A stretch of 53,143 nt of DNA from a virus. The position numbers and the translations under genes were made by a program. Position 1 is the first letter of the stretch. Each line of letters starts with the position of its first letter. Below, piece after piece: positions 22,247-53,143 of this stretch. Under the pieces are notes generated by a model. That model ran no database searches and was not told the DNA's origin. It was given only the letters and a program-made list of their open reading frames with translations. The stretch covers positions 1 through 53,143 of IMG/VR virus record IMGVR_UViG_3300046028_008563; one strand, 5' to 3'.

Positions 22247-22516
22247 CTATTCTGTCTCGTGGAGGTCGAAGCTCACCCCCACCTCTACCCGCATCCCCAC
22301 AGCGGCGGCGTATGCGGCGAGCTGGGCGTAGGGGATCGGCCTGTCGCCGCGCTCATACTGCCCCACGCGGAGCTGGGCCTGCTTTGGGGTCAGGCCCATC
22401 GCCTCCCCCACTTGACGCTGGCTCATCCCCAGCGCCTCGCGCCGCTCGCGGAGCTTGCGCACCGCATCAAGGGCGGCGGCCTCGCGAGCCGCCGCGAAGA
22501 TCGTCTTCTCGCTCAT
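22247..22516 (-). CDS. XRE-family HTH regulator
   Basis: 89 residues. After an Ala-rich helix, residues about 20-75 form a Cro/C1-type HTH: LRERREALGMSQRQVGEAMGLTPKQAQLRVGQYERGDRPIPYAQLAAYAAAVG. All elements are present: the M-S-Q-x-x-V-G start of helix 2, the recognition helix and the YERGDRPI helper region. The C-terminus is a short beta stretch. Starting upstream would add sequence without an RBS; the chosen ATG has GAGG/GAGAG behind it. Likely a late switch for the leftward operon. Confidence 0.75.
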   Translation of the reverse strand: MSEKTIFAAAREAAALDAVRKLRERREALGMSQRQVGEAMGLTPKQAQLRVGQYERGDRPIPYAQLAAYAAAVGMRVEVGVSFDLHETE

Positions 22517-23554: not shown

Positions 23555-23701
23555 TCCTTTTTTTGGGATTGTGCGCAGAATCTTTCTTGGGCTGGTGTCA
23601 CCCTTCAAGACGCGCCAGCGAGGCGCCGCTGACAGCCCCACCCCACTTTTCTCTTGCCAGCCGCCGCCGCCCCTAAATCCTAATATGAATCAATAAAATA
23701 A

Positions 23702-23717
23702 GGCAGGCGGCGGCAAG
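23702..23717 (+). repeat. GC-rich element in the gap right of the internal leftward promoter
   Basis: GGCAGGCGGCGGCAAG followed by CTC. Directly preceded by an AT-rich stretch (ATAAAATA). Here no start codon follows on the plus strand, and read leftward the element would lie near the end of the Mom transcript. Confidence 0.55.
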
Positions 23718-32731: not shown

Positions 32732-32752
32732 CTCTTGCCGCCGCCGCCTGCC
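32732..32752 (-). repeat. GC-rich leader element, copy in reverse orientation
   Basis: Read on the reverse strand this is GGCAGGCGGCGGC plus one extra GGC and then AAGAG, base for base the same as 43092-43112 on the plus strand. It lies in the gap between two leftward genes, 32 bases before the downstream start. Confidence 0.7.
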
Positions 32753-33514: not shown

Positions 33515-33543
33515 ATAATAGCGCCTCCCCTCCCCTCAGTCAA
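33515..33543 (-). promoter_or_regulatory. Strong sigma70-type promoter of the leftward operon
   Basis: Reverse strand: TTGACT (33543-33538), 17-base G/A-rich spacer, TATTAT (33520-33515). It is 52 bases upstream of the first leftward gene. An operator-like palindrome touches the -35 box, so repression or activation at this spot is likely. Confidence 0.78.
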
Positions 33544-33565
33544 GCATTTTGCTAAACATTTTGCT
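33543..33565. promoter_or_regulatory. Operator-like pair 1
   Basis: AGCATTTTGCT (33543-33553, palindromic apart from its centre) and AACATTTTGCT (33555-33565), start-to-start distance 12 bp. Located at the -35 of the leftward promoter. A second pair with the same spacing is at 33712-33734. Likely bound by the XRE protein encoded at 33809. Confidence 0.6.
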
Positions 33566-33611: not shown

Positions 33612-33627
33612 GGCAGGCGGCGGCGGC
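33612..33627 (+). repeat. GC-rich element, TCACTCG subtype
   Basis: GGCAGGCGGCGGCGGC followed by TCACTCG. The copy before the large terminase (45960) is followed by TGACTCG, so these two form a subtype distinct from the AAGAG copies. Confidence 0.55.
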
Positions 33628-33711
33628 TCACTCGCTCGCATGCCGATCAGCTCCCATGCGCCTCTGACGGCTCATGCGGGGCTGGTGCGGGCCACACTGA
33701 ACATGCGTCTA

Positions 33712-33734: not shown

Positions 33735-33808
33735 AGGCGTATTTACAAGCGCGCTGCTCATGTGGCAGGGCTTGTGGTGGTGGCATGGCCCGACACATGG
33801 AGGTCAAG

Positions 33809-34090
33809 ATGGGCGATCAAAGGCTGGAGACGATGACACAAGAAGACAAGCTGGAGCTGGCACGGGCGGTCACGAGGCTGCGCGAGTTCGTGGGGAAGTC
33901 GCAGAAGGACGTGGCAGAGGCAGCGGGCATCCCCCGCTCCACCTACACGAACATGGAGCGGTACGGCATGGGCTCGCCGGAGACCTTCACCAAAGCCCTC
34001 ACCGCGCTCAACACAGACCTTGACCGTGTGCGCGAGTGGTACGCGGGCGCCCAGCTCCTGACCAGCAAGGCGACGGGGACAGCGGGATGA
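33809..34090 (+). CDS. XRE-family repressor-like regulator
   Basis: 93 residues from the ATG behind GGAGGTCAAG; an upstream in-frame ATG at 33785 has no site. HTH at about residues 20-60: LREFVGKSQKDVAEAAGIPRSTYTNMERYGMGSPETFTKALTALN. Short C-terminal tail without a peptidase domain. It opens an operon with ParA and ParB (ATGA overlap), so it may regulate partition as well as the divergent leftward promoter. The paired 11-bp sites are its likely operators. Confidence 0.75.
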   Translation: MGDQRLETMTQEDKLELARAVTRLREFVGKSQKDVAEAAGIPRSTYTNMERYGMGSPETFTKALTALNTDLDRVREWYAGAQLLTSKATGTAG

Positions 34091-36029: not shown

Positions 36030-36593
36030 ATGCCGAAGCCTACCACACAACCTGCCATCCCAAAGCAGGCGGCGGGCGCAAAAAACAACCCCCCGGCATC
36101 TGTGGAAGGAGGCGGGGGGTTGTCGTCGAGGTCCGATCACGAACCCAAACACGAGGTGAACTTACCCGCCAACGAACCAAAGCACAACGAACATTTTGAT
36201 CGTGGGGAGACCGAAAACTCTCTTGGCCAAGAAAGGCGAGAGCCCCAAGACCGCTACAGTCCGGGGCTCTCTGACCACTCCAGGGTCAACGAGGGAGAGT
36301 TTAGTCTCGACCAGTGGTCGCGTCAAGTGTTCAGTGCACGAATTGACGCGACCAGCAAGCTCCTCTTGCTCGCCATGGGCCAGCTCGCAGACACCAGCGG
36401 CGTCTGTTGGCCGACGCAGGCGACGCTCGCGCACATGCTCAACTCCGGCCGCGGCACCGTGATCAGCGCCATCACCCGCATGGAACAAGCGGGGTGGCTT
36501 CTTGTAGATAGGGACAGGACCGCGCAGGGGCACAAGCTCCATCACTACATACTGTTACCGCTCATCAACGACGAGAGCCATGTTCAAAAATAG
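36030..36593 (+). CDS. Winged-helix initiator-like protein
   Basis: 187 residues from an ATG with AAGGAG upstream. Residues 1-90 are polar, low complexity and encoded by DNA with strong hairpins. Residues about 92-180 are a winged helix: FSLDQWSRQVFSARIDATSKLLLLAMGQLAD, then VCWPTQATLAHMLNSGRGTVISAITRMEQAGWL, as in helix-turn-helix replication proteins. The same layout occurs in the next gene, so the two look like paralogues. Either a second initiator or a replication regulator. A later start (for example GTG 36156) is possible. Confidence 0.6.
   Translation: MPKPTTQPAIPKQAAGAKNNPPASVEGGGGLSSRSDHEPKHEVNLPANEPKHNEHFDRGETENSLGQERREPQDRYSPGLSDHSRVNEGEFSLDQWSRQVFSARIDATSKLLLLAMGQLADTSGVCWPTQATLAHMLNSGRGTVISAITRMEQAGWLLVDRDRTAQGHKLHHYILLPLINDESHVQK
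36085..36123 (-). terminator. Hairpin with T-run on the reverse strand
   Basis: ACAACCCCCC (36085-36094) pairs with GGGGGGTTGT (36114-36123). On the reverse strand the stem is followed by a T-run, as in a factor-independent terminator for leftward transcription. It sits inside the coding frame of the winged-helix gene. Confidence 0.55.
36215..36302. other. Nested inverted repeats inside the winged-helix gene
   Basis: Outer arms AAACTCTC (36215-36222) and GAGAGTTT (36295-36302) enclose inner arms GAGAGCCCC (36238-36246) and GGGGCTCTC (36263-36271). Just upstream ACGAAC occurs three times (36139, 36172, 36187). The block could be a structured mRNA leader or a centromere-like site next to parB. 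Confidence 0.5.
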
Positions 36594-36607: not shown

Positions 36608-36636
36608 TTGACAGAACATGGCCAACCCCCTACACT
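36608..36636 (+). promoter_or_regulatory. Sigma70-type promoter of the replication operon
   Basis: TTGACA (36608-36613), exact 17-base spacer, TACACT (36631-36636). It is 77 bases before the ATG of the iteron-bearing initiator gene at 36714. Confidence 0.75.
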
Positions 36637-40090: not shown

Positions 40091-41341
40091 ATGACGACGT
40101 GCAACACAAGCCCCAACGCCCCCCACATCCCCATGCGCGACCGCCTGCGCGCCGCCCGCCTCGCCTTGAAGGCCAAGCAGGACGATCTGTCTGCGCTGTG
40201 GGGGCTCTCCAACCGCCAGGTGGTGAGCGACTGGGAGCGCGACCGCCAGCCGATCCCCGATGAGGTGGTGCCCAAGATCGAGCAGCTCGAAGGGTGGGCG
40301 GCGGCAGGCGGCACACTCGACGCGGTGCGTGAGGAGATCGCGAAGATCAAGGATGCGGAGCTGGCGGCGCAGATCGAGCGCGCCCACAGCAAGGCGACCA
40401 GCTGGCAGGCGATGGGCTCGCGCCCTGTGCCGCTGATCGAGCAGCCCGCGCAGCTCACCCTTGAGGGTGCCGCGCCCATGACGCCCGCGCCTCGCCCTGA
40501 GCCTGCCGCCGCCGCTGCCCCCTCGCCTGACACCTACACCACGATCTCATGGGAGAGCTTTGTGGTGGAGGTGGACGGCAAGCGCGGGGTGTCGCTGCGG
40601 GCGCTCGTTGCGGCGGGCCTGTTCTCGCGCTTGGATCACGGTGTTGATGCGCTCACGCGCGCAGGGGTCCAGTTCTCCCGCGTTCGCGGGGGAACCTCCG
40701 CGCAGGGTGGGCGGCCACAGGAGGATCATCTGATGGGCTTGCGCGAGGCGCAGCGCTTCTGCGCTCGCGTGCGGACCGCTGTGGGTGAGCGCATCCTTGA
40801 TCAGATCCTTGACCACCATGACGAGCTCCAGCGGCTCATCGCTGGCGACGCCGACGCGCACCAGCGGCTCGCCGATGTGCAGCCGCCCGCCCCCACCCCT
40901 GCCCTCTCGCCCACGATGGTTGCCTTGCAGGCCGCGCTCGAGCATGAGGCGAAGATCATCCAGCTTCAGCACGACGTCGCGGCGCTCCAGCGGGCAGAGG
41001 CGATCCGTCGCGAGGAGAGCGAGCGGATGCTTGCGCGGCTCAAGGGCGCGGGCCTGCCTGAGCCCACGGTGGATGCTCCGGCGCTCACCACCCGCAAGGC
41101 GCTCGTCGCCCAGCTCGCCCGCGTCGGGGTGGACGCTGGCAACGGGCGCGACCACCACCACGCTGCGTGGGTCCACCTGTACAGCCAGTATGAACACCGG
41201 GCAGGCGTGGATCTCAAGACGCGGGCCAAGAACGCGGGGCAGACGGTGCTTGACTACGCGGAGACGCACGACCACCTCGACGCGCTGTATGCGCTGGCGT
41301 GTGAGCTGTGGCCGACAGACGGGGCAGGGGCGCGGGCCTGA
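40091..41341 (+). CDS. HTH protein with antirepressor-like middle part
   Basis: 416 residues. Residues 14-60 are an XRE-like HTH (MRDRLRAARLALKAKQDDLSALWGLSNRQVVSDWERDRQPIPDEVV). A Pro/Ala-rich linker is followed at about 150-260 by a compact domain (ISWESFVVEVDGKRGVSLRALVAAGLFSR, later LMGLREAQRFCARVRTAVGERI) that resembles phage antirepressors. The C-terminal half is coiled coil and a helical end. It may counter the repressor at 33809; this is inference. Confidence 0.6.
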   Translation: MTTCNTSPNAPHIPMRDRLRAARLALKAKQDDLSALWGLSNRQVVSDWERDRQPIPDEVVPKIEQLEGWAAAGGTLDAVREEIAKIKDAELAAQIERAHSKATSWQAMGSRPVPLIEQPAQLTLEGAAPMTPAPRPEPAAAAAPSPDTYTTISWESFVVEVDGKRGVSLRALVAAGLFSRLDHGVDALTRAGVQFSRVRGGTSAQGGRPQEDHLMGLREAQRFCARVRTAVGERILDQILDHHDELQRLIAGDADAHQRLADVQPPAPTPALSPTMVALQAALEHEAKIIQLQHDVAALQRAEAIRREESERMLARLKGAGLPEPTVDAPALTTRKALVAQLARVGVDAGNGRDHHHAAWVHLYSQYEHRAGVDLKTRAKNAGQTVLDYAETHDHLDALYALACELWPTDGAGARA

Positions 41342-41364: not shown

Positions 41365-41382
41365 GGCAGGCGGCGGCAAGAG
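41365..41382 (+). repeat. GC-rich leader element, AAGAG subtype
   Basis: GGCAGGCGGCGGCAAGAG, ending 31 bases before the ATG at 41414. No -10-like sequence is obvious just upstream. One of three copies at nearly the same distance from a start codon. Confidence 0.65.
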
Positions 41383-41413
41383 ATGCGCGCCGTGTGCCGC
41401 TGGAGAGAGGGTG

Positions 41414-42139
41414 ATGATGGACGAGAGGATGATCGAGGTCGCGGATCTGCGCGAGGGTGACGTGTTCGAGCTGCCCGGCGTCGGCACGTTCGGCGTGGTG
41501 CGCATATGGGGTGGCGGTGAGGTGCGAACGATCCACCTTGAGGCGTGGACGCAGGGCGCGGGCTGTGAGCTGAGGCTGCGGAGCGCGCTCAAGGTGCGGC
41601 TCTTGAGCAGGGCGCCGGATGACCTGCTGAAGCGTGTGCAGGATGAGCGGCGGGATGCGTCGCTGGCGAGCCTCGACGCGCTGTTCCGCGAGGTGGATGA
41701 GGCGCCCGACGCTGAGGAGGCGCCCGATGACGGGCTCGCTCACGACGATTGGGAGATGCCGCCCTCGCTTGAGGGCGTGGCGCAGGTGCGCGAGGCGCTG
41801 CGGCGCGCTGACCTCGCGCTGGCGGGGCTGCGCAACGCGCTTGTGGTAGAGCGTGAGCTGCAAGCCAGGTGCGCGGAGCTGGAGCGGGAGCGTGATGAGC
41901 TCATCGCAACCGCCGCCGCTGGTGCCGCCGAGATCGCCAAGTCGCGCCAAGAGGAGCGCGACTACAAGGCGCAGATCGCGGCGCTCAGGTGCGAGTTGGA
42001 TAAGGTGACCGAGGCTCGGGACATGGCCGTGTACCTGATGACCCGTCGGCAGGGTGAGTATGACCAGATGCAGGCGGAGCGTGACGCGGCGCGGGCGGAG
42101 CGTGACGCCCTGCGCGCAGGTATGGGAGGTGCGTCATGA
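41414..42139 (+). CDS. Coiled-coil protein with small N-terminal barrel
   Basis: 241 residues from an ATG pair behind GAGAGGGTG; an earlier ATG at 41384 would put the GC-rich element's 3' flank into the protein. Residues 1-55 look like a KOW-type beta barrel (LREGDVFELPGVGTFGVVRIWGGGEVRT). Residues 85-110 are acidic, and 125-241 form a long coiled coil (ARCAELERERDELIATAA onwards). Possibly a scaffold or DNA-associated factor. ATGA-coupled to the next gene. Confidence 0.6.
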   Translation: MMDERMIEVADLREGDVFELPGVGTFGVVRIWGGGEVRTIHLEAWTQGAGCELRLRSALKVRLLSRAPDDLLKRVQDERRDASLASLDALFREVDEAPDAEEAPDDGLAHDDWEMPPSLEGVAQVREALRRADLALAGLRNALVVERELQARCAELERERDELIATAAAGAAEIAKSRQEERDYKAQIAALRCELDKVTEARDMAVYLMTRRQGEYDQMQAERDAARAERDALRAGMGGAS

Positions 42140-42555
42140 ACAGGCGGCAGGCAGAGGAGGCAGCGGCGGCGCTGCGTGTGGCGTTCCCGGACGTGGTGTG
42201 GTCGCTGTACGAGGCGCGCAGCACTACGCGTCTGGACGTGTGCGGGGAGCTTGGCGGGTTGCGTCATGCCATCGTGCGCGACCATCACCGGGGAGGCTAC
42301 ACCGCCGACACGCTCATCAGGCCCGACAACGAGTGGGCTTTGGATGTGGATGATGTGGGGCGTGGCATGGGTGATGACCCGGTGTCTGCCATGCGCGATG
42401 CGCTCACGCAGCATGACGGGCGCTGGGAGAGTGAGGAGCTGCGCCGCGCATACGTCCTGACGCTGTTGCGCGAGCGCGAGGCATACCTGGTGGCGCAGCT
42501 GGAGGATTGCCGGGCGGGGATCGCGGACTTGGAGAGCAAGGGAGGTGGCAGATGA
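42136..42555 (+). CDS. Unknown small protein
   Basis: 139 residues. N-part alpha/beta (AALRVAFPDVVWSLYEARSTTRLDVCGEL), then an acidic centre with WALDVDDVGRGMGDDP, and a C-terminal coil. ATGA overlaps on both sides show one operon. No family recognised. Confidence 0.65.
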   Translation: MNRRQAEEAAAALRVAFPDVVWSLYEARSTTRLDVCGELGGLRHAIVRDHHRGGYTADTLIRPDNEWALDVDDVGRGMGDDPVSAMRDALTQHDGRWESEELRRAYVLTLLREREAYLVAQLEDCRAGIADLESKGGGR

Positions 42556-42923
42556 CCAGCTGCAAGGCTCCTGACCACCGCGACGCTGCCACCACCCTCT
42601 ACGACGCGCTGCGCGATGAGCTTCGCGCCCAGCGCTTCGACGCCAAGCAGGTGGATGGCACGGCGTTGCTGATGATGGGCGACCTCTTGGAGTGCACCAA
42701 GGGCGTGGTGAGCGATCTCTTGGAGGGGCGTGAGGTGTGCGCCCGCGTTCTGTGTACCCTCAAAGACAGGACGGCTGGCGGCGGCGGCCTGCAAGGTGCG
42801 CGTGACCAGCGGGCGCGGGAGTGGCAGAGGATACAGGAGCGGCAGGACGCGGCGATCGAGGGCGTCAAGGAGGAGGTCGCGGCGGGCAAGGTGGAGACGT
42901 GGCAACCGGGGATGTCTGGGTGA
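42552..42923 (+). CDS. Unknown helical protein
   Basis: 123 residues, ATGA-coupled. Mostly helical and charged, with EECAG-poor composition and a basic/acidic C-terminal helix (RAREWQRIQERQDAAIEGVKEEVAAGKVETWQ). The Gly run GGGGL falls in the middle. Function unknown. Confidence 0.6.
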   Translation: MTSCKAPDHRDAATTLYDALRDELRAQRFDAKQVDGTALLMMGDLLECTKGVVSDLLEGREVCARVLCTLKDRTAGGGGLQGARDQRAREWQRIQERQDAAIEGVKEEVAAGKVETWQPGMSG

Positions 42924-43058
42924 TATGTTGATTGTGTCCACGCCCACCGTGCTTCAAGACTGTGGACACGATGTGCCTATATCGAGCGTGTGATGTCTAT
43001 GGGCGTGGAGATCACACGAAAAAAGTGCAGGATCGTGGATAAAAAATAGGTTGATTGG

Positions 43059-43086
43059 TTGATTCATTTGGTCAATCTGTTATAAT
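43059..43086 (+). promoter_or_regulatory. Sigma70-type promoter, rightward
   Basis: TTGATT (43059-43064), 16-base spacer, perfect TATAAT (43081-43086). The GC-rich element begins 6 bases after the -10, so it would form the very start of the transcript. Drives the small-gene block from 43146. Confidence 0.78.
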
Positions 43087-43091
43087 AGTTG

Positions 43092-43112
43092 GGCAGGCGG
43101 CGGCGGCAAGAG
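43092..43112 (+). repeat. GC-rich leader element at a transcription start
   Basis: GGCAGGCGGCGGC plus GGC plus AAGAG, identical over 21 bases to the reverse copy at 32732-32752. It directly follows a perfect -10 and ends 33 bases before the start codon, so it would be in the 5' leader. Confidence 0.72.
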
Positions 43113-43145
43113 CTGTGCGTCGCGAGGCTTTTGAGAGGTGATGTG

Positions 43146-43379
43146 ATGAGTCATTGTGCAGCGGGGCTTGAGCCCGCCCCGAACATCGTCGAGTTCGTCT
43201 ATGAGAACCACCGCGGGGAGGTGCGCCCCGTGCGCATCGACGCGGCGACGACTCACCTGTGGAGCGGCACGACGGCGTACTACCCGGAGCATCAGCCGCT
43301 GCTCACCGCGTGGGATATGGACCGGGGTGAGGAGCGGACCTATGCGCTCAAGCGCGTGCGGTCGTGGGGAGGTGTGTGA
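43146..43379 (+). CDS. Mini WYL-like protein
   Basis: 77 residues from the ATG behind GAGAGGTGATGTG. The core reads IVEFVYENHRGEVRPVRIDAATTHLWSGTTAYYPEHQPLLTAWDMDRGEERTYALKRVRSW. The order 'Y.n..GE.R..ri.....w.Gt..y.pe..lL.AwD.d.g.eR.yal.ri' is like the beta core of WYL domains, which sense ligands or nucleic acid in defence regulators. Here the domain stands alone, without an HTH. Confidence 0.6.
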   Translation: MSHCAAGLEPAPNIVEFVYENHRGEVRPVRIDAATTHLWSGTTAYYPEHQPLLTAWDMDRGEERTYALKRVRSWGGV

Positions 43380-43735
43380 TGCGGGCCTGGTTGGTGGTGT
43401 TGGAGCGGCGCGGCGTGTTCATCTGGCCGCTGCGCGTGGTGGTGCATGTGGCTGCGCTGTTGCCTGTGGGGTGGCTCGTCAGCCTTGGTGCGCATGAGCG
43501 TGATTTTGTCGTCACTGCGTGTATGGGCATCCTGCTTGGTGGGCTCACCACGACGCTGACGAGCCATGTGCATGTCTTCGGGCTCATGATCCTTGAGGCG
43601 CTTGAGCAGTCGGCTCGTGCTGCGCTTGAGGATCTGCGTCAAGAGGTGCGCAGGGTTGAGATGGGCGAGGAAGCGGCGGCGGCTCAAGCTGGCGCGCTGT
43701 CCGTTTTTGAGCAAGATGGGGAGGGTGTGCGATGA
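43379..43735 (+). CDS. Membrane protein with two helices
   Basis: 118 residues; the ATG shares one base with the stop before it. Hydrophobic segments at about residues 15-38 (FIWPLRVVVHVAALLPVGWLVSL) and 45-68 (FVVTACMGILLGGLTTTLTSH). The C-terminal half is an acidic coiled coil facing the cytoplasm by charge. Function unknown; early membrane proteins are often exclusion factors. Confidence 0.62.
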   Translation: MRAWLVVLERRGVFIWPLRVVVHVAALLPVGWLVSLGAHERDFVVTACMGILLGGLTTTLTSHVHVFGLMILEALEQSARAALEDLRQEVRRVEMGEEAAAAQAGALSVFEQDGEGVR

Positions 43736-43947
43736 GTAAGTGGTCAAGATCGGGGTTGACGCCCCGTGTCGCCATCCCCGGCGTGTGGGTGACGGTCGGC
43801 GCTGATGGTGTATCCAGCGTGAGCATTGAGCCGCAGGCGATCCGGGCGTCGTGTCGTGAGGCGACGGCGCACGGCTACACCGCGCAAGAGGCGCTGCTCA
43901 AGGCGATCAAGGCGTGGCAGCGGGAGAAGGCGAGGGCCGCACGATGA
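43732..43947 (+). CDS. Small unknown protein
   Basis: 71 residues, ATGA-coupled to both neighbours. Beta first half (GVWVTVGADGVSSVSIEPQ), helical basic second half (ALLKAIKAWQREKARAAR). No family recognised. Confidence 0.6.
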   Translation: MSKWSRSGLTPRVAIPGVWVTVGADGVSSVSIEPQAIRASCREATAHGYTAQEALLKAIKAWQREKARAAR

Positions 43948-44180
43948 AGCGTTCTGACTATGCCCGCGCCTCGCTGGCGATAGGTATGCTGACCACCGTG
44001 GGCTCGCTCACCCTCTTGGATGAGGGTGGCGCCGATGAGCTCATCGCCCGCCTCGACAAGCAGCGCGAGCAGGAGCTTTGGGCGCTCGGGCTGGGTCCGC
44101 GTCGCACACCACCCAAGCCCGTTGGGCAGCGTCGCGCCAAGAGCGCCGCCCGCCGCCGCCGCCTGAGGGGGCAGGGATGA
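43944..44180 (+). CDS. Small basic protein
   Basis: 78 residues, ATGA overlap. A helical N-part is followed by a very basic end (RRAKSAARRRRLRGQG) that could bind nucleic acid. It is coupled to rusA by overlap, so an accessory role in recombination is conceivable. Confidence 0.6.
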   Translation: MKRSDYARASLAIGMLTTVGSLTLLDEGGADELIARLDKQREQELWALGLGPRRTPPKPVGQRRAKSAARRRRLRGQG

Positions 44181-44575
44181 CCGCCTGCCCCAGCTCCATC
44201 GTCTTCGACGTCCCCGGCAAGCCTCGCCCCAAGGCCCGCCCGCGTGTCACCTCTCACGGCACCTTCACCCCCAAGCACGTCGCGGACTGGGAGAAGGTCG
44301 TGGGGCAGTACGCCCTCCTCGCGGGGCTGCGGCCGGTGGATGGTGCGTGTGAGGTGCGCGTGTGGCTGTGTGGCGTGGGGCTCACAGGCGACGTGGACAA
44401 CTACCTCAAAGCGATCCTCGACGGGCTCAACGGGGTCGCCTACGCGGACGACAGGCAGGTCAAGGCGGCGCACGTCTACAAGCTCGCCGGGCGCGGGGCG
44501 CTGTGTAGGGTCGAGGTGGTGCGGCTGGAGGTGGGGTGGGAGGAGCAGGTGGTGATGCCGGAGGTGGTGAAGTGA
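44177..44575 (+). CDS. rusA: RusA-type Holliday junction resolvase
   Basis: 132 residues. The RusA signature is clear: FDVPGKPRPKARPRV near the N-terminus, GDVDNYLKAILDGLNGVAYADDRQV at 71-95 with Asp72, Asp74 and Asp91 as the metal-binding triad. Cuts four-way junctions before packaging. It is the last gene before the terminase block, a frequent place for resolvases in phages. Confidence 0.92.
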   Translation: MTACPSSIVFDVPGKPRPKARPRVTSHGTFTPKHVADWEKVVGQYALLAGLRPVDGACEVRVWLCGVGLTGDVDNYLKAILDGLNGVAYADDRQVKAAHVYKLAGRGALCRVEVVRLEVGWEEQVVMPEVVK

Positions 44576-44593
44576 GTAGACACACGGGGCGGC

Positions 44594-44611
44594 GGCAGGC
44601 GGCGGCAAGAG
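44594..44611 (+). repeat. GC-rich element before the terminase operon
   Basis: GGCAGGCGGCGGCAAGAG in the 48-bp gap between rusA and the small terminase gene, 12 bases before the GTG. Here the following AGAGAGGTGGTGAGG also serves as RBS region. Confidence 0.6.
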
Positions 44612-44623
44612 AGAGGTGGTGAG

Positions 44624-45097
44624 GTGAAGAAGGGCGATCGATTAAGCGAGAAGCAGCGCCGCTTTGTGGATCTGTACATGGGGGAGGCGGCAGGCAACGC
44701 GACCGAGGCGGCGCGTCTCGCTGGCTACAAGGGGAGCGATGGCACGCTGCGCGTCGTCGCGACCGAGAACTTATCAAAACCTAACATTCAAGCGGCGATC
44801 CGTGAACGGGTCAGCAAGCGGCCAGAGGTGGCGAGCCGGGATGAGCGACAGGAGTTCTACTCGGCGATCATGCGCGGGGTGGATCCGTACAGCCGCGACG
44901 ATGGCGAGCCGATCCCGATCAAGGACAGGCTCAAGGCGTGCGAGACGCTCGGCAAGATGCAAGGCGACTTCCTTGAGAGGCACGAGGTCAAGCTGACGGG
45001 CGAGACGACGACGACGCTCAGGATGGGCGAGCTGTCTGACGCTGCGCTGCTGGAGCTGGTCAAGGCGGTCGCGCCCAAGACGGGAGGTGAGCAGTGA
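44624..45097 (+). CDS. terS: Terminase small subunit
   Basis: 157 residues from a GTG. N-terminal 'LSEKQRRFVDLYMGEAAGNATEAARLAGY' followed by 'NLSKPNIQAAIRERV' is the Terminase_2-type HTH arrangement. A central helical region and an acidic C-terminus follow. Recognises phage DNA for packaging. GTGA overlap with the next gene; the large subunit is two genes further. Confidence 0.85.
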   Translation: MKKGDRLSEKQRRFVDLYMGEAAGNATEAARLAGYKGSDGTLRVVATENLSKPNIQAAIRERVSKRPEVASRDERQEFYSAIMRGVDPYSRDDGEPIPIKDRLKACETLGKMQGDFLERHEVKLTGETTTTLRMGELSDAALLELVKAVAPKTGGEQ

Positions 45098-45636
45098 GCG
45101 CATGTGACCTGATCCCTGATGAGCATGACGTGGTGCGTGAGTACGCCACGGCCCGCGAGGCGGCGAGCGTTTACGGTGCGCTGCGTGAGAGCGCACCTGG
45201 CACCTGCCGCGCACAGGACTACTCCAAGCTCGTGCTCGCTGGCGTCCAGATGAACGCCGGGCCTGACGCGGGCATGTGGCAGATCGAGGCGCTCGATGCG
45301 CTGCGTGACCTTGAGCGGGCCTTTGAGGCAGCGCGGGCTGTGGTGCTCACGTGGGAGGAAGGCGAGGGGATGTGGCGTGTGTGGTGGCAGGTGCGCGTGG
45401 AGCAGGTCAGTCTGCGCAAGGTGCCAGACGTCGCCCGCTCGACCGCCGACCGCATCACCCGCAGCGTGGATCGCGCCGTGCAGGACGCGCTTGATGCCCG
45501 CGAGCTGCGCCGCCTCACCGTGAGCGAGGGCCGCAGCGCCGAGCTCAACAGCCCTGCTCCACAAGTGCGCACCTGCATGATCCTGTATGGCGATGAGACC
45601 TTTCGTGACGCGAAGAGCAAGGAGGTGGTGAAGTGA
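45094..45636 (+). CDS. Unknown protein between the terminase genes
   Basis: 180 residues from a GTG overlapping terS. Mixed alpha/beta with a Trp-rich middle (EEGEGMWRVWWQVRVEQVSL) and a helical C-half (RITRSVDRAVQDALDARELRRL). Ends GTGA-coupled to the next gene. No family recognised; possibly linked to packaging by position. Confidence 0.62.
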   Translation: MSACDLIPDEHDVVREYATAREAASVYGALRESAPGTCRAQDYSKLVLAGVQMNAGPDAGMWQIEALDALRDLERAFEAARAVVLTWEEGEGMWRVWWQVRVEQVSLRKVPDVARSTADRITRSVDRAVQDALDARELRRLTVSEGRSAELNSPAPQVRTCMILYGDETFRDAKSKEVVK

Positions 45637-45902
45637 GCACATGCAAGCGGTTCGTCCTGAACGTGATCGAGCGCAAGATGGGCGTGCGGCAGGCAGCACG
45701 CGCTGCTGGCTTTGCGCAGGGCGTGCCCTCACCCCAGGCCCGCCGCCTGCTCAAGATGGCCCAGCTCATCCGCGAGACTCCGGGGATGGCCGACGCGGTG
45801 GCACGCGATCACGCCCTCGCGCAGTCCGCCCTCGCCCGCGCCGCCGACAAGGCAGCCTCCGCCTCGGCGTGGCATGAGGCGCTCACGATCCTCAAGGGCT
45901 AG
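45633..45902 (+). CDS. Small HTH-like protein
   Basis: 89 residues from a GTG. The N-half FVLNVIERKMGVRQAARAAGFAQGVPSPQARRLLKMAQ has a plausible HTH resembling that of terminase small subunits; the C-half is Ala-rich helix. May be a second DNA-recognition partner. Moderate confidence in the gene, low in the role. Confidence 0.55.
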   Translation: MSTCKRFVLNVIERKMGVRQAARAAGFAQGVPSPQARRLLKMAQLIRETPGMADAVARDHALAQSALARAADKAASASAWHEALTILKG

Positions 45903-45959
45903 CGTAGACAGCCAAGCTCACTACACCGCCCAACCTGTCTCACCTCAAAAAATGGGCAT

Positions 45960-45975
45960 GGCAGGCGGCGGCGGC
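45960..45975 (+). repeat. GC-rich element before the large terminase gene
   Basis: GGCAGGCGGCGGCGGC followed by TGACTCG, the same subtype as at 33612. It is in the 126-bp gap before terL and ends 53 bases from its GTG. The gap has no other clear signal. Confidence 0.6.
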
Positions 45976-46028
45976 TGACTCGTGGTGCGTCAAGGGGGCC
46001 ACGTTCTGCACAGGGTAGAGGTGCACGC

Positions 46029-47560: not shown

Positions 47561-50257
47561 ATGACAGCCGACAAGACGATGCTCGCGGTGCTCAAGCGCT
47601 ACGGGCTCAAGCCCTCCACCTTCGCCGCGCCGCCTGAGCCGCAGGTGGTGCGCCTTGAGGAGTGGGCCGCTGACGACAAGGAGCCGCGTGAGCTGGTCGA
47701 GTCGCTGACGGGTGGCAAGCACGCGAGCGCCAAGCTCCTGCAGCTCGCCGAGGAAGATGAGGCGCTCAAGCCCTACCTCTCGGATATGCCCGCGCCCGAC
47801 GTCGAGATCGGCACGCCTGGCACGCCGATCTACGGCGGCATCCTGCGCGTGGACCCCTCCTACCGCATGTCGCCCTTTGTGGCGCGTGGTCACGCCTCCT
47901 CGCTCGGCGTGTATGAGGAGCACCTGCGCGAGCCGCTCGTGTATCAGTGCTTCCAGACGCTTCGCCAGCTGCTCGTGACGGGTAGCTGGACCATTCAGAT
48001 GCCGGAGCTCGCACAGGAGTGGATGACCCCTGCCCAACTCGGCGCGCTGGAGCGCGAGATCGACACGATCTGGTCGGCGCTGCTCAACACGGAGGATGGC
48101 TGGGACCACTACGTCGAGCACGCCGCGACCGCGATCATCTTCGGCTTCTCGATCTTCGAGGTGGTGTGGCGCCAGACCTCCAAGGGCTGGCTCCCCTCAC
48201 GGCTCGCCTTCCGCGAGGCGTCCACGGTGGACCAGTGGTTGATGACCGCACGTCAGGATCGGCTGGTCGGCGTGCGCTTTGCCACGGGCTCGCCCGGCTC
48301 CACCTACGTCCTGCCCGCATGGGGTGACACGCTCACCTCGCGCCGCGTCCTGCTCAACACGCTCGGCGGTCGGGGCAACAACTTCGAGGGCATCCCCCCG
48401 ACGCGTCCCATCGACACGCTGATCACCTACAAGAAGCTGCTGCTCACGATCGCGGCGGCGGCGGCGGAGCGCTTCGGGTCGCCCGTCCTGCTCGCCAAGG
48501 TGGACGCGGGGCTCAAGGATCTGCCGGGCTTTAACCCCTCACAGGAGCAGTGGGACGGCTTCATGGCGATCCTTGAGACGATGCGCGCGTTGGAGACCCC
48601 CACGCTCGCCGCGCCTCCTGGCCTTGACGCTGCCTATCTTGGCCCTCCCGGCACGATGCCGGACCTGCTCGGCCAACTGGAGTATTGCGACAAGCAGATC
48701 ATGCTGGCCTTCAGCAACCAGGGGAGCTTGCTCGGACAGGGCGCCCACGGCTCCTACGCGCTCGCTGAGGTGCAAGACAACCAGCTCCTGCGCTCCGCCC
48801 CCTATTACGCGCAGGTCATCACGCGCTCGCTCAACGGGCTCATCCGCGACCTGCTGCGCTCTCGTGGGTGGACGCTCCCGCAGTACCCGCAGATCAAGTG
48901 GCAGGTCGGCGGGGCCGCTGACGCCTCGCGCCTGCTCGCCGATCTCGGCTCCTTTATGTCGCAGGCTGGCAGTTGGCCGCGTGCTGCCCAGCAGCTCGGG
49001 CTGAAGCTCATGGGTCTGCCGGCTGACACGTTTGAGGCAGGGGATGCCTTTGATCCTCAAGATGACCAGCGGCAGGCGGCGGCGGCGGCTGATGCGCCCA
49101 CGCTCAACGCCGAGCATGGCGCTGGCTGTGGGTGTGGCGATGCGCTGACCGCGCTCGCCGAGAGCTACACGCCGCCCAAGGGTGTGCAGGATAACGCAGC
49201 CCGCGCCCTCGCGGTGCGTGAGGATAAGGTGGAGAGCGAGCGCGGCATGACCCCCGTGGGGATCGCCCGCGCCCGCGACCTCTCCAACGGCCGCCCCGTG
49301 AGCGAGGACACGCTGCGCCGGATGGTCGCCTACTTTGATCGCCACGAGAGCGACAAGCAGGGCGAGACGTGGGACGAGCAGGGCAAGGGGTGGCAGGCGT
49401 GGCACGGCTGGGGTGGTGATGAGGGCTGGCGTTGGGCCAAGCAGATCGTTGAGCGCCTCGATCGCGAGCGTGACGAGCTCGCCGACGCGCTCGCGCAGGG
49501 TGAGCTTGTGCAGCTCGCGGAGAGCGACTGGCCGCCCGCCGCCGCCGCCCTGATGGATGCCGCCGAGGCAGAGCTTGCGAAGGCGTTTGGGCAGATCCAG
49601 CGCGCCCAGCAGCAGCGGTGGCGTGAGCTGATCCGCGACAACACCGACGCCGCCGATCTCCTCGCAGACCGTGACCAGATCCGGCGTGAGTACCAGCCGC
49701 GCTACCTTGAGGCAGTGCAGCTCGTGATCGAGCAGGTGGGCGAGCGCGCTGGTGTGCAGCTCGGTAAGCAGCTCGGCGTGGAGCTTGGTATCCCCTTCGA
49801 GGTCACGCCAGAGCTCTCGCTGCTCGCCGCCAACGTGGCAGACGAGATGACGAGCCGCACGATCGGGCTCATGTCGTCTGCACAGGTCGAGCGGGAGCGA
49901 GGCTCCTCACGCCTCGCGGTCCCCATCCTCGCGACGGCGACGCTCACGCTCATCGCCTCACGCGCCGTCTCTGGCGCCTTCAACGCTGGTCGCGATCGCA
50001 TGATCCAGTCCGTGCTTGAGGCGTTCAAGAAGCGCACCGAGCAGACGCCCCGCTTCATCGCGGAGCGCTCGGCGGTGCTGGACCCCGCGACCTGTGAGAC
50101 CTGCGCCGCGCTCGATGGGGTGCAGGTGCTCGTGGGCAGCAAGCGCTACCGCGACCTCTCACCGCCGAACCGCTGCAAGGGCGGGGAGCGGTGTCGCTGT
50201 GTCTGGATCTACCGCGTGCCAGCCGGCATCGCGGACGTGCTCAAGGTGGAGACATGA
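47561..50257 (+). CDS. Portal protein fused to MuF-like head morphogenesis domain
   Basis: 898 residues. Residues 1-490 resemble DUF935/Mu gp29-type portals: an N-terminal VARGHASSLGVYEEHLREPLVYQ region, YVEHAATAIIFGFSIFEVVW, and the IMLAFSNQGSLLGQGAHGSYALAEVQ segment. Residues 540-640 are a small domain known from phage head proteins (VQDNAARAL, TPVGIARARDLSNGRPVSEDTLRRMVAYFDRHE, then WHGWGGDEGW). Residues 700-898 are MuF-like, ending DPATCETCAALDGVQV, then RCKGGERCRC. Mu has portal and MuF on two genes; here the frame is continuous. RBS is weak, immediately after terL. Confidence 0.88.
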   Translation: MTADKTMLAVLKRYGLKPSTFAAPPEPQVVRLEEWAADDKEPRELVESLTGGKHASAKLLQLAEEDEALKPYLSDMPAPDVEIGTPGTPIYGGILRVDPSYRMSPFVARGHASSLGVYEEHLREPLVYQCFQTLRQLLVTGSWTIQMPELAQEWMTPAQLGALEREIDTIWSALLNTEDGWDHYVEHAATAIIFGFSIFEVVWRQTSKGWLPSRLAFREASTVDQWLMTARQDRLVGVRFATGSPGSTYVLPAWGDTLTSRRVLLNTLGGRGNNFEGIPPTRPIDTLITYKKLLLTIAAAAAERFGSPVLLAKVDAGLKDLPGFNPSQEQWDGFMAILETMRALETPTLAAPPGLDAAYLGPPGTMPDLLGQLEYCDKQIMLAFSNQGSLLGQGAHGSYALAEVQDNQLLRSAPYYAQVITRSLNGLIRDLLRSRGWTLPQYPQIKWQVGGAADASRLLADLGSFMSQAGSWPRAAQQLGLKLMGLPADTFEAGDAFDPQDDQRQAAAAADAPTLNAEHGAGCGCGDALTALAESYTPPKGVQDNAARALAVREDKVESERGMTPVGIARARDLSNGRPVSEDTLRRMVAYFDRHESDKQGETWDEQGKGWQAWHGWGGDEGWRWAKQIVERLDRERDELADALAQGELVQLAESDWPPAAAALMDAAEAELAKAFGQIQRAQQQRWRELIRDNTDAADLLADRDQIRREYQPRYLEAVQLVIEQVGERAGVQLGKQLGVELGIPFEVTPELSLLAANVADEMTSRTIGLMSSAQVERERGSSRLAVPILATATLTLIASRAVSGAFNAGRDRMIQSVLEAFKKRTEQTPRFIAERSAVLDPATCETCAALDGVQVLVGSKRYRDLSPPNRCKGGERCRCVWIYRVPAGIADVLKVET

Positions 50258-52918: not shown

Positions 52919-53143
52919 ATGAGCCACAAGATCATCGCCGTCCGCGACGGCTTCAAGGATGAGGACGGTGTCTACTGGGACGCCTTCAAGATCGCGTCCG
53001 TCTCCTCGGCACACGCCGCCTACCTGTGCAGCCGCAGCGCGCACGTCATGAGCCTTGATGACCTCAAGACTCGCATCACCAAGGGCTACCCCACCGGGAC
53101 GCTCGCAGGCTTTGCGCGCAAGCTCAAGCTCGATGACCTCGCC
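52919..53143 (+). CDS. Head-region protein, 5' part of the gene split by the window ends
   Basis: Starts at the ATG behind AAGGAG and runs off the end; joined to the start of the window it is 142 residues. The first 44 residues (SHKIIAVRDGFKDEDGVYWDAFKIASV, then SSAHAAYLCSRSAHV) are alpha/beta with many Tyr and Ser. Follows the capsid gene after a palindrome. See the first entry for the rest. Confidence 0.8.
   Translation, partial: MSHKIIAVRDGFKDEDGVYWDAFKIASVSSAHAAYLCSRSAHVMSLDDLKTRITKGYPTGTLAGFARKLKLDDLA
53018..53143. repeat. Terminal direct repeat, right copy
   Basis: Identical to 4-129. Same gene, same frame. Confidence 0.95.

Follow-up and report, generated by a model that had tools for sequence, protein, structure and literature searches.

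The antitermination sites of the lambdoid phages (nut, put and qut) are short sequences placed in operon leaders, possibly more than one per genome. Other dispersed sites have been described in mycobacteriophages. The SAS of cluster K are asymmetric 13-nt repeats with the consensus GGGATAGGAGCCC, located immediately before start codons, and their function was not known in the paper describing them (PMC3203893). The stoperators of cluster A are asymmetric 13-bp repressor sites present in promoters and short gaps, and oriented with transcription (PMC9283540).

The element described here shares several properties with these systems: i) like SAS and ESAS, it has an asymmetric 13-nt core with several copies per genome, located before genes and nearly all oriented with transcription, ii) like the stoperators, it places an asymmetric 13-bp core in short gaps, with an orientation following transcription in six of the seven copies (P 0.06) and in a further copy from a distant relative (L205), iii) like nut, put and qut, it consists of short sites in leaders, several per genome. 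It is a member of the broad kind of dispersed intergenic phage motifs. Since it shows neither the start adjacency of SAS nor the presence at early promoters (here predicted ones) of stoperators, it belongs to neither family.

The window, that is, the whole stretch of DNA analysed, comprises 53,143 bases and is the entire virus record IMGVR_UViG_3300046028_008563. Its ends share about 120 bases of overlap (positions 1-130 and 53014-53143) and are joined in a near relative, contig L042, which shows around 94 to 96% DNA identity to the window over most of its own length; the map is therefore circular. A gene starting near 52919 crosses the junction. The genome has a GC content of 67% and corresponds to a tailed phage; DNA and protein searches of phage and plasmid collections gave no close relative of the window. 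The gene map, built by hand, contains 71 genes (a few starts are uncertain) and assigns about 50.6 kb to genes and about 2.5 kb to non-coding DNA. Thymidylate synthase, dCTP deaminase and cytosine methylase are encoded too, together with the following genes:

22247-22516: XRE-type protein
23744, minus strand: Mom-like protein
33785-34090: XRE-type protein
34087: ParA
34836: ParB-like protein
36648: replication-initiator-like protein
38603: DnaB
40091-41341: XRE-type protein
44177 to 44575: RusA
44624, plus strand: terminase small subunit
46029, plus strand: terminase large subunit
47561: Mu-type portal protein

In the portal gene, the part coding for the C-terminus differs by replacement between the window (49050-49460) and L042 (750-1070), in surroundings otherwise about 94% identical in DNA, and is a local recombination spot. 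The segment covering residues 535-684 of the portal protein is also present in hundreds of viral contigs.

The core of the element is the 13-mer GGCAGGCGGCGGC, with 12 exact occurrences in the window, seven in non-coding DNA and five inside genes according to the hand-made map. These copies, and a degenerate partner of one of them, are the following:

23651-23672, minus strand: degenerate partner GGGCGGCGGCGGCTGGCAAGAG, reading towards the leftward gene 23472-23017
23702-23717, plus strand: element GGCAGGCGGCGGCAAG, directed at the 3' end of the Mom-like gene, which runs leftward
32732-32752, minus strand: element equal to the 43092 copy, preceding the leftward gene 32702 (or 32699) to 32361
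33612-33634, plus strand: element with tail GGCTCACTCG, within the long leader belonging to the XRE/ParA/ParB block
41365-41382, plus strand: element GGCAGGCGGCGGCAAGAG, exact match, in the gap of 72 nt that leads to gene 41414-42139
43092-43112, plus strand: element GGCAGGCGGCGGCGGCAAGAG, exact match, preceding gene 43146-43379
44594-44611, plus strand: element in the gap between the RusA gene (end 44575) and the small terminase gene (44624)
45960-45982, plus strand: element with tail GGCTGACTCG, preceding the large terminase gene (46029)
6413, 21336 (minus strand), 27669, 30428 and 49071: exact 13-mer copies inside genes

The seven intergenic positions are those named in the original prediction, and all of them lie in non-coding DNA. 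The identity over 21 bases announced for the copies at 32732 and 43092, on opposite strands, extends to 22 bases (GGGCAGGCGGCGGCGGCAAGAG). The intergenic copies have in common the prefix GGCA, and the two expected tails were found at six of them: AAGAG at 41365, 43092, 44594 and 32752 (minus strand), and T[CG]ACTCG at 33612 and 45960. The 23702 copy continues with AAGCTC and matches neither. All seven are located between 23.7 and 46.0 kb, a region made up of the non-structural half and the terminase genes, and both strands are represented. Of the 12 gaps measuring 20 nt or more in this interval they occupy 7; the virion-gene half holds no exact intergenic copy. At 2983, close to the start of a gene, there is a copy with one mismatch; it diverges further in L042 and was set aside. 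Six of the seven copies read towards the next gene, in agreement with the proposed link to gene heads, and this orientation bias taken alone is weak (P = 0.06). The only exact intergenic copy not pointing to a gene start, 23702, forms with its degenerate partner an inverted pair across an AT-rich spacer (16-nt arms, 81% complementary). The complement of 23702 is followed by TTATTTTATT and may act as the 3' arm of a terminator hairpin; the terminator-like fold there is not better than those of shuffled sequences.

A composition artefact has to be considered, because the element is made of GGC runs such as those produced by Ala and Gly codons. Among the 13-mers of the window's genes, GGC runs are the most frequent, and the exact copies in genes (five) exceed the 0.12 expected under synonymous shuffling; for these reasons the core inside genes proves little, and it was on the intergenic copies that the original prediction had relied. 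These are different in kind. The coding rate predicts 0.25 copies in the gaps, against seven observed (P about 1e-8), an enrichment that had been chosen beforehand as a check, and Markov models predict 0.001 to 0.6, the highest value being that of a 5th-order model for which the gaps themselves served as training set. Moreover, the GGCA prefix is present in 7 of the 9 GGC tracts located in gaps, compared with 5 of the 54 within genes (Fisher P = 4e-5), the AAGAG tail is shared by four of the seven intergenic copies, and the coding copy at 49071 is missing from L042. An origin in composition is thus hardly credible.

Concerning the distance to the next gene, the AAGAG end lies 31 nt before the start in the 41365 copy (ATG 41414), 33 nt in the 43092 copy (ATG 43146) and 32 nt in the minus-strand copy at 32752 (ATG 32699; 29 nt if the start is 32702). 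The conserved spacing put forward at first holds for these three and is lost at 44594, 45960 and 33612, where the tail-to-start distance is 12, 46 and at least 150 nt, respectively. A translation-linked leader similar to SAS, in which an RNA element would help or control ribosome loading on the next gene, would suit the three copies at 31 to 33 nt and the one at 12 nt, as well as the orientation towards the gene and the asymmetry of the 13-mer, which SAS share. We consider it unlikely, however, because the distances vary, 33612 and 45960 are too distant, and the close cases have a separate purine-rich ribosome-binding stretch of their own between element and start. SAS, besides, lie immediately upstream of the start, whereas the element is found at 12, 29-33, 46, 72 (L205) and at least 150 nt from it; the core GGCAGGCGGCGGC differs from GGGATAGGAGCCC, and the extended inverted repeats of SAS/ESAS are absent.

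The sites that may bear on transcription are the following:

33515-33543, minus strand: promoter-like site TTGACT-17-TATTAT, lacking the element, for the leftward block
33542-33565, plus strand: direct repeat AAGCATTTTGCT, two copies, a candidate repressor operator separate from the element
36608-36636: promoter-like site without element
43059-43086, plus strand: sigma-70-type promoter-like site TTGATT-16-TATAAT, with 10 of 12 consensus positions and TG before the -10 box, a sequence match only

The 43092 copy begins 5 nt past the -10 box of the latter site. A place at the head of a transcript, as first suggested, is therefore supported by sequence only for this copy and perhaps for that of L205; directly upstream of the copies at 41365, 44594, 32752 (minus strand) and 33612 no promoter could be recognised. 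Dispersed repressor sites that halt transcription in the prophage state, as stoperators do, would explain the 13-bp asymmetric core, the short gaps and the orientation with transcription, which is the cluster A pattern, and ParA/ParB and the XRE-type regulators suggest a temperate life style. Nevertheless, the probable early promoters at 33515-33543 and 36608-36636, which are themselves predictions, carry no element; there are 7 to 8 sites of another sequence instead of more than 20, and no stoperator-type repressor was recognised in the PDB sequence search, where 40091-41341 matched only the P22 C2 HTH, weakly, and 33785-34090 matched nothing. The immunity-like region, in turn, has its own direct repeats: between 33533 and 33730, that is, between the leftward promoter-like site and the XRE gene, AAGCATTTTGCT/AAACATTTTGCT are found together with a looser copy, AAGCATCCTGCT, farther on, and they are likely to constitute the immunity operator. 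Such a repressor function is accordingly quite unlikely for the element. As the element is asymmetric and not a palindrome, a classical dimeric operator is unlikely too.

The leaders of 41365, 43092 and 32752 (minus strand) are alike beyond AAGAG (9 to 10 of 16 bases, P 0.007 to 0.017). A coding origin was rejected, given that these three most similar leaders have their core 49, 54 and 50 nt from the start, so that each is in a different frame with respect to its gene, and that an in-frame stop precedes the gene after 44594. A conserved RNA hairpin was rejected as well: the folding z-scores of the eight sense leaders were -5.3, -0.8, 0.2, 1.0, -0.3, 1.2, 0.4 and 0.15, so only one (41365, z -5.3) folds significantly better than shuffles, and in the 32752 (minus strand) leader the positions that pair in other leaders are A, which breaks the stem. 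The element leaders thus differ from nut, put and qut in having no consistent hairpin (boxB or put stem-loops), and they gave no match in Rfam; four copies in a row with the same direction are a further difference.

The viral scan for GGCAGGCGGCGGC, followed by at most three bases and AAGAG, covered 2.9 million viral contigs and gave 41 stretches, most of them resembling coding sequence, often P-loop coding. One of them, contig L001 (full record L205), has by far the most AT-rich upstream flank and, independently, L205 has the most proteins matching those of the window among the 41. L205 is a distant relative (portal 35% identical, four other virion proteins 29 to 37%). Ahead of its terminase genes, an AT-rich gap contains the 18-mer GGCAGGCGGCGGCAAGAG without mismatch, preceded by an AT-rich stretch and pointing to the next gene, with a tail-to-start distance of 72 nt. 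This copy lies 77 nt past the stop of a gene whose product is 39% identical over 46 residues (E = 5e-4 in a small comparison) to that of window gene 45633-45902, the one directly preceding the 45960 copy, and both genes are likely homologues. The large terminases of both phages are not recognisably alike, so both phages have the element although its neighbour gene was replaced or diverged beyond recognition. For the L205 contig, the number of 18-mer copies predicted by Markov models is about 1e-5 to 3e-5. A second exact 18-mer is found there inside a gene, so non-regulatory copies can arise. Conservation, the other check fixed beforehand, is thus observed in one relative, L205, at a comparable place. 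Searches with DnaB, the RepO-like protein, ParB, the L205 large terminase and a portal alignment gave no further relative with the element; those with the window large terminase and portal gave many distant loci, none with the element; and scanning for the form extended by GGC, preceded by AT-rich DNA, gave unrelated matches only.

These data bear on the idea that the element has no function, being a leader duplicated with gene cassettes or merely a short patch of homology at their borders. The three leaders related beyond the core could reflect such duplication, and 41365, 43092, 44594 and 45960 are located where small blocks of genes meet, at intervals of about 1.4 to 1.7 kb. Nevertheless, the core is exact although the flanks have diverged, and a relative whose portal is only 35% identical also has it unchanged, where a neutral relic would have decayed; we regard this explanation as unlikely.

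A centromere bound by ParB, or a packaging or replication site, could be imagined because ParA/ParB are encoded, two copies adjoin terminase genes and 23660/23702 form an inverted pair. In contrast to parS, the element is asymmetric and spread over 22 kb, neither palindromic nor clustered near parAB, and most copies are single; such a role is very improbable. The spread and the orientation likewise make the recombination or packaging signal once proposed unlikely, and a leader or antitermination-type site is the best among the readings offered originally. A better candidate for the centromere is the perfect 12-nt inverted repeat TGGTCGCGTCAA/TTGACGCGACCA at 36315-36354 (16-nt spacer), just 3' of parB, in DNA with lower third-position GC, which is a candidate parS or origin.

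With regard to the hosts, the pattern WWWWNNNNGGCAGGCGGCGGCAAG with AT-rich upstream DNA was searched for in 84,980 bacterial and archaeal species (one genome per species), giving 34 scattered single hits. No sequenced lineage among them carries the pattern in number, which makes a host element unlikely; on these data, the element belongs to the phage.

The non-virion-gene half, between 23744 and 45902, also contains all the proteins of a particular N-terminal type. About 13 of the 71 predicted proteins begin with M/V-[S/T/A]-x-C (MSAC, MTSC, MTTC, MSHC, MSDC, MAKC, VSTC and others), and their gene starts are the following:

24634, 24978, 27878, 29080, 30925, 32699 and 33046: minus strand
40091, 42552, 43146, 44177, 45094 and 45633: plus strand

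Cys is found at position 4 in 11 proteins by plain count, or 13 with two corrected starts, compared with 0 to 2 proteins for other early positions and 1.2% Cys overall. Given that both Cys codons and several position-2 codons are used, the pattern resembles an N-terminal tag at the level of the protein, and not a motif of the DNA.

Taking these results together, the reading that we favour, tentatively and at somewhat less than an even chance, is that of an asymmetric cis element specific to this phage lineage, of the form GGCAGGCGGCGGC(GGC) usually followed by AAGAG, placed in the leaders heading the non-structural gene blocks and the terminase genes. It would serve as a sequence-specific site, either as double-stranded DNA or as unpaired nascent RNA, and we infer that a phage-encoded regulator reads it and so sets transcription into the downstream genes, by control of elongation or of the antitermination type near the 5' end. 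An asymmetric, orientation-biased site at gene heads fits a phage factor acting during transcription. Against this regulator-read site stand the 23702 copy, which faces a gene end, the four copies with no recognisable promoter, the range of start distances (12 to at least 150 nt) and the two promoter-like sites that carry no element.

It is also possible, although doubtful, that the element represents a new class: an unstructured leader motif free of U, from a phage lineage not described before. A phage-encoded factor would read it and coordinate the terminase genes and, on both strands, the non-structural blocks, and it would be common to phages with virion proteins as far apart as about 35% identity. 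Genome annotation misses the regulatory systems to which dispersed intergenic phage motifs, for example SAS and stoperators, point. The element is a well-supported motif with a candidate role in the control of non-structural genes, and a core unrelated in sequence to those systems and exact across large protein divergence is a testable candidate for a phage-wide regulon.
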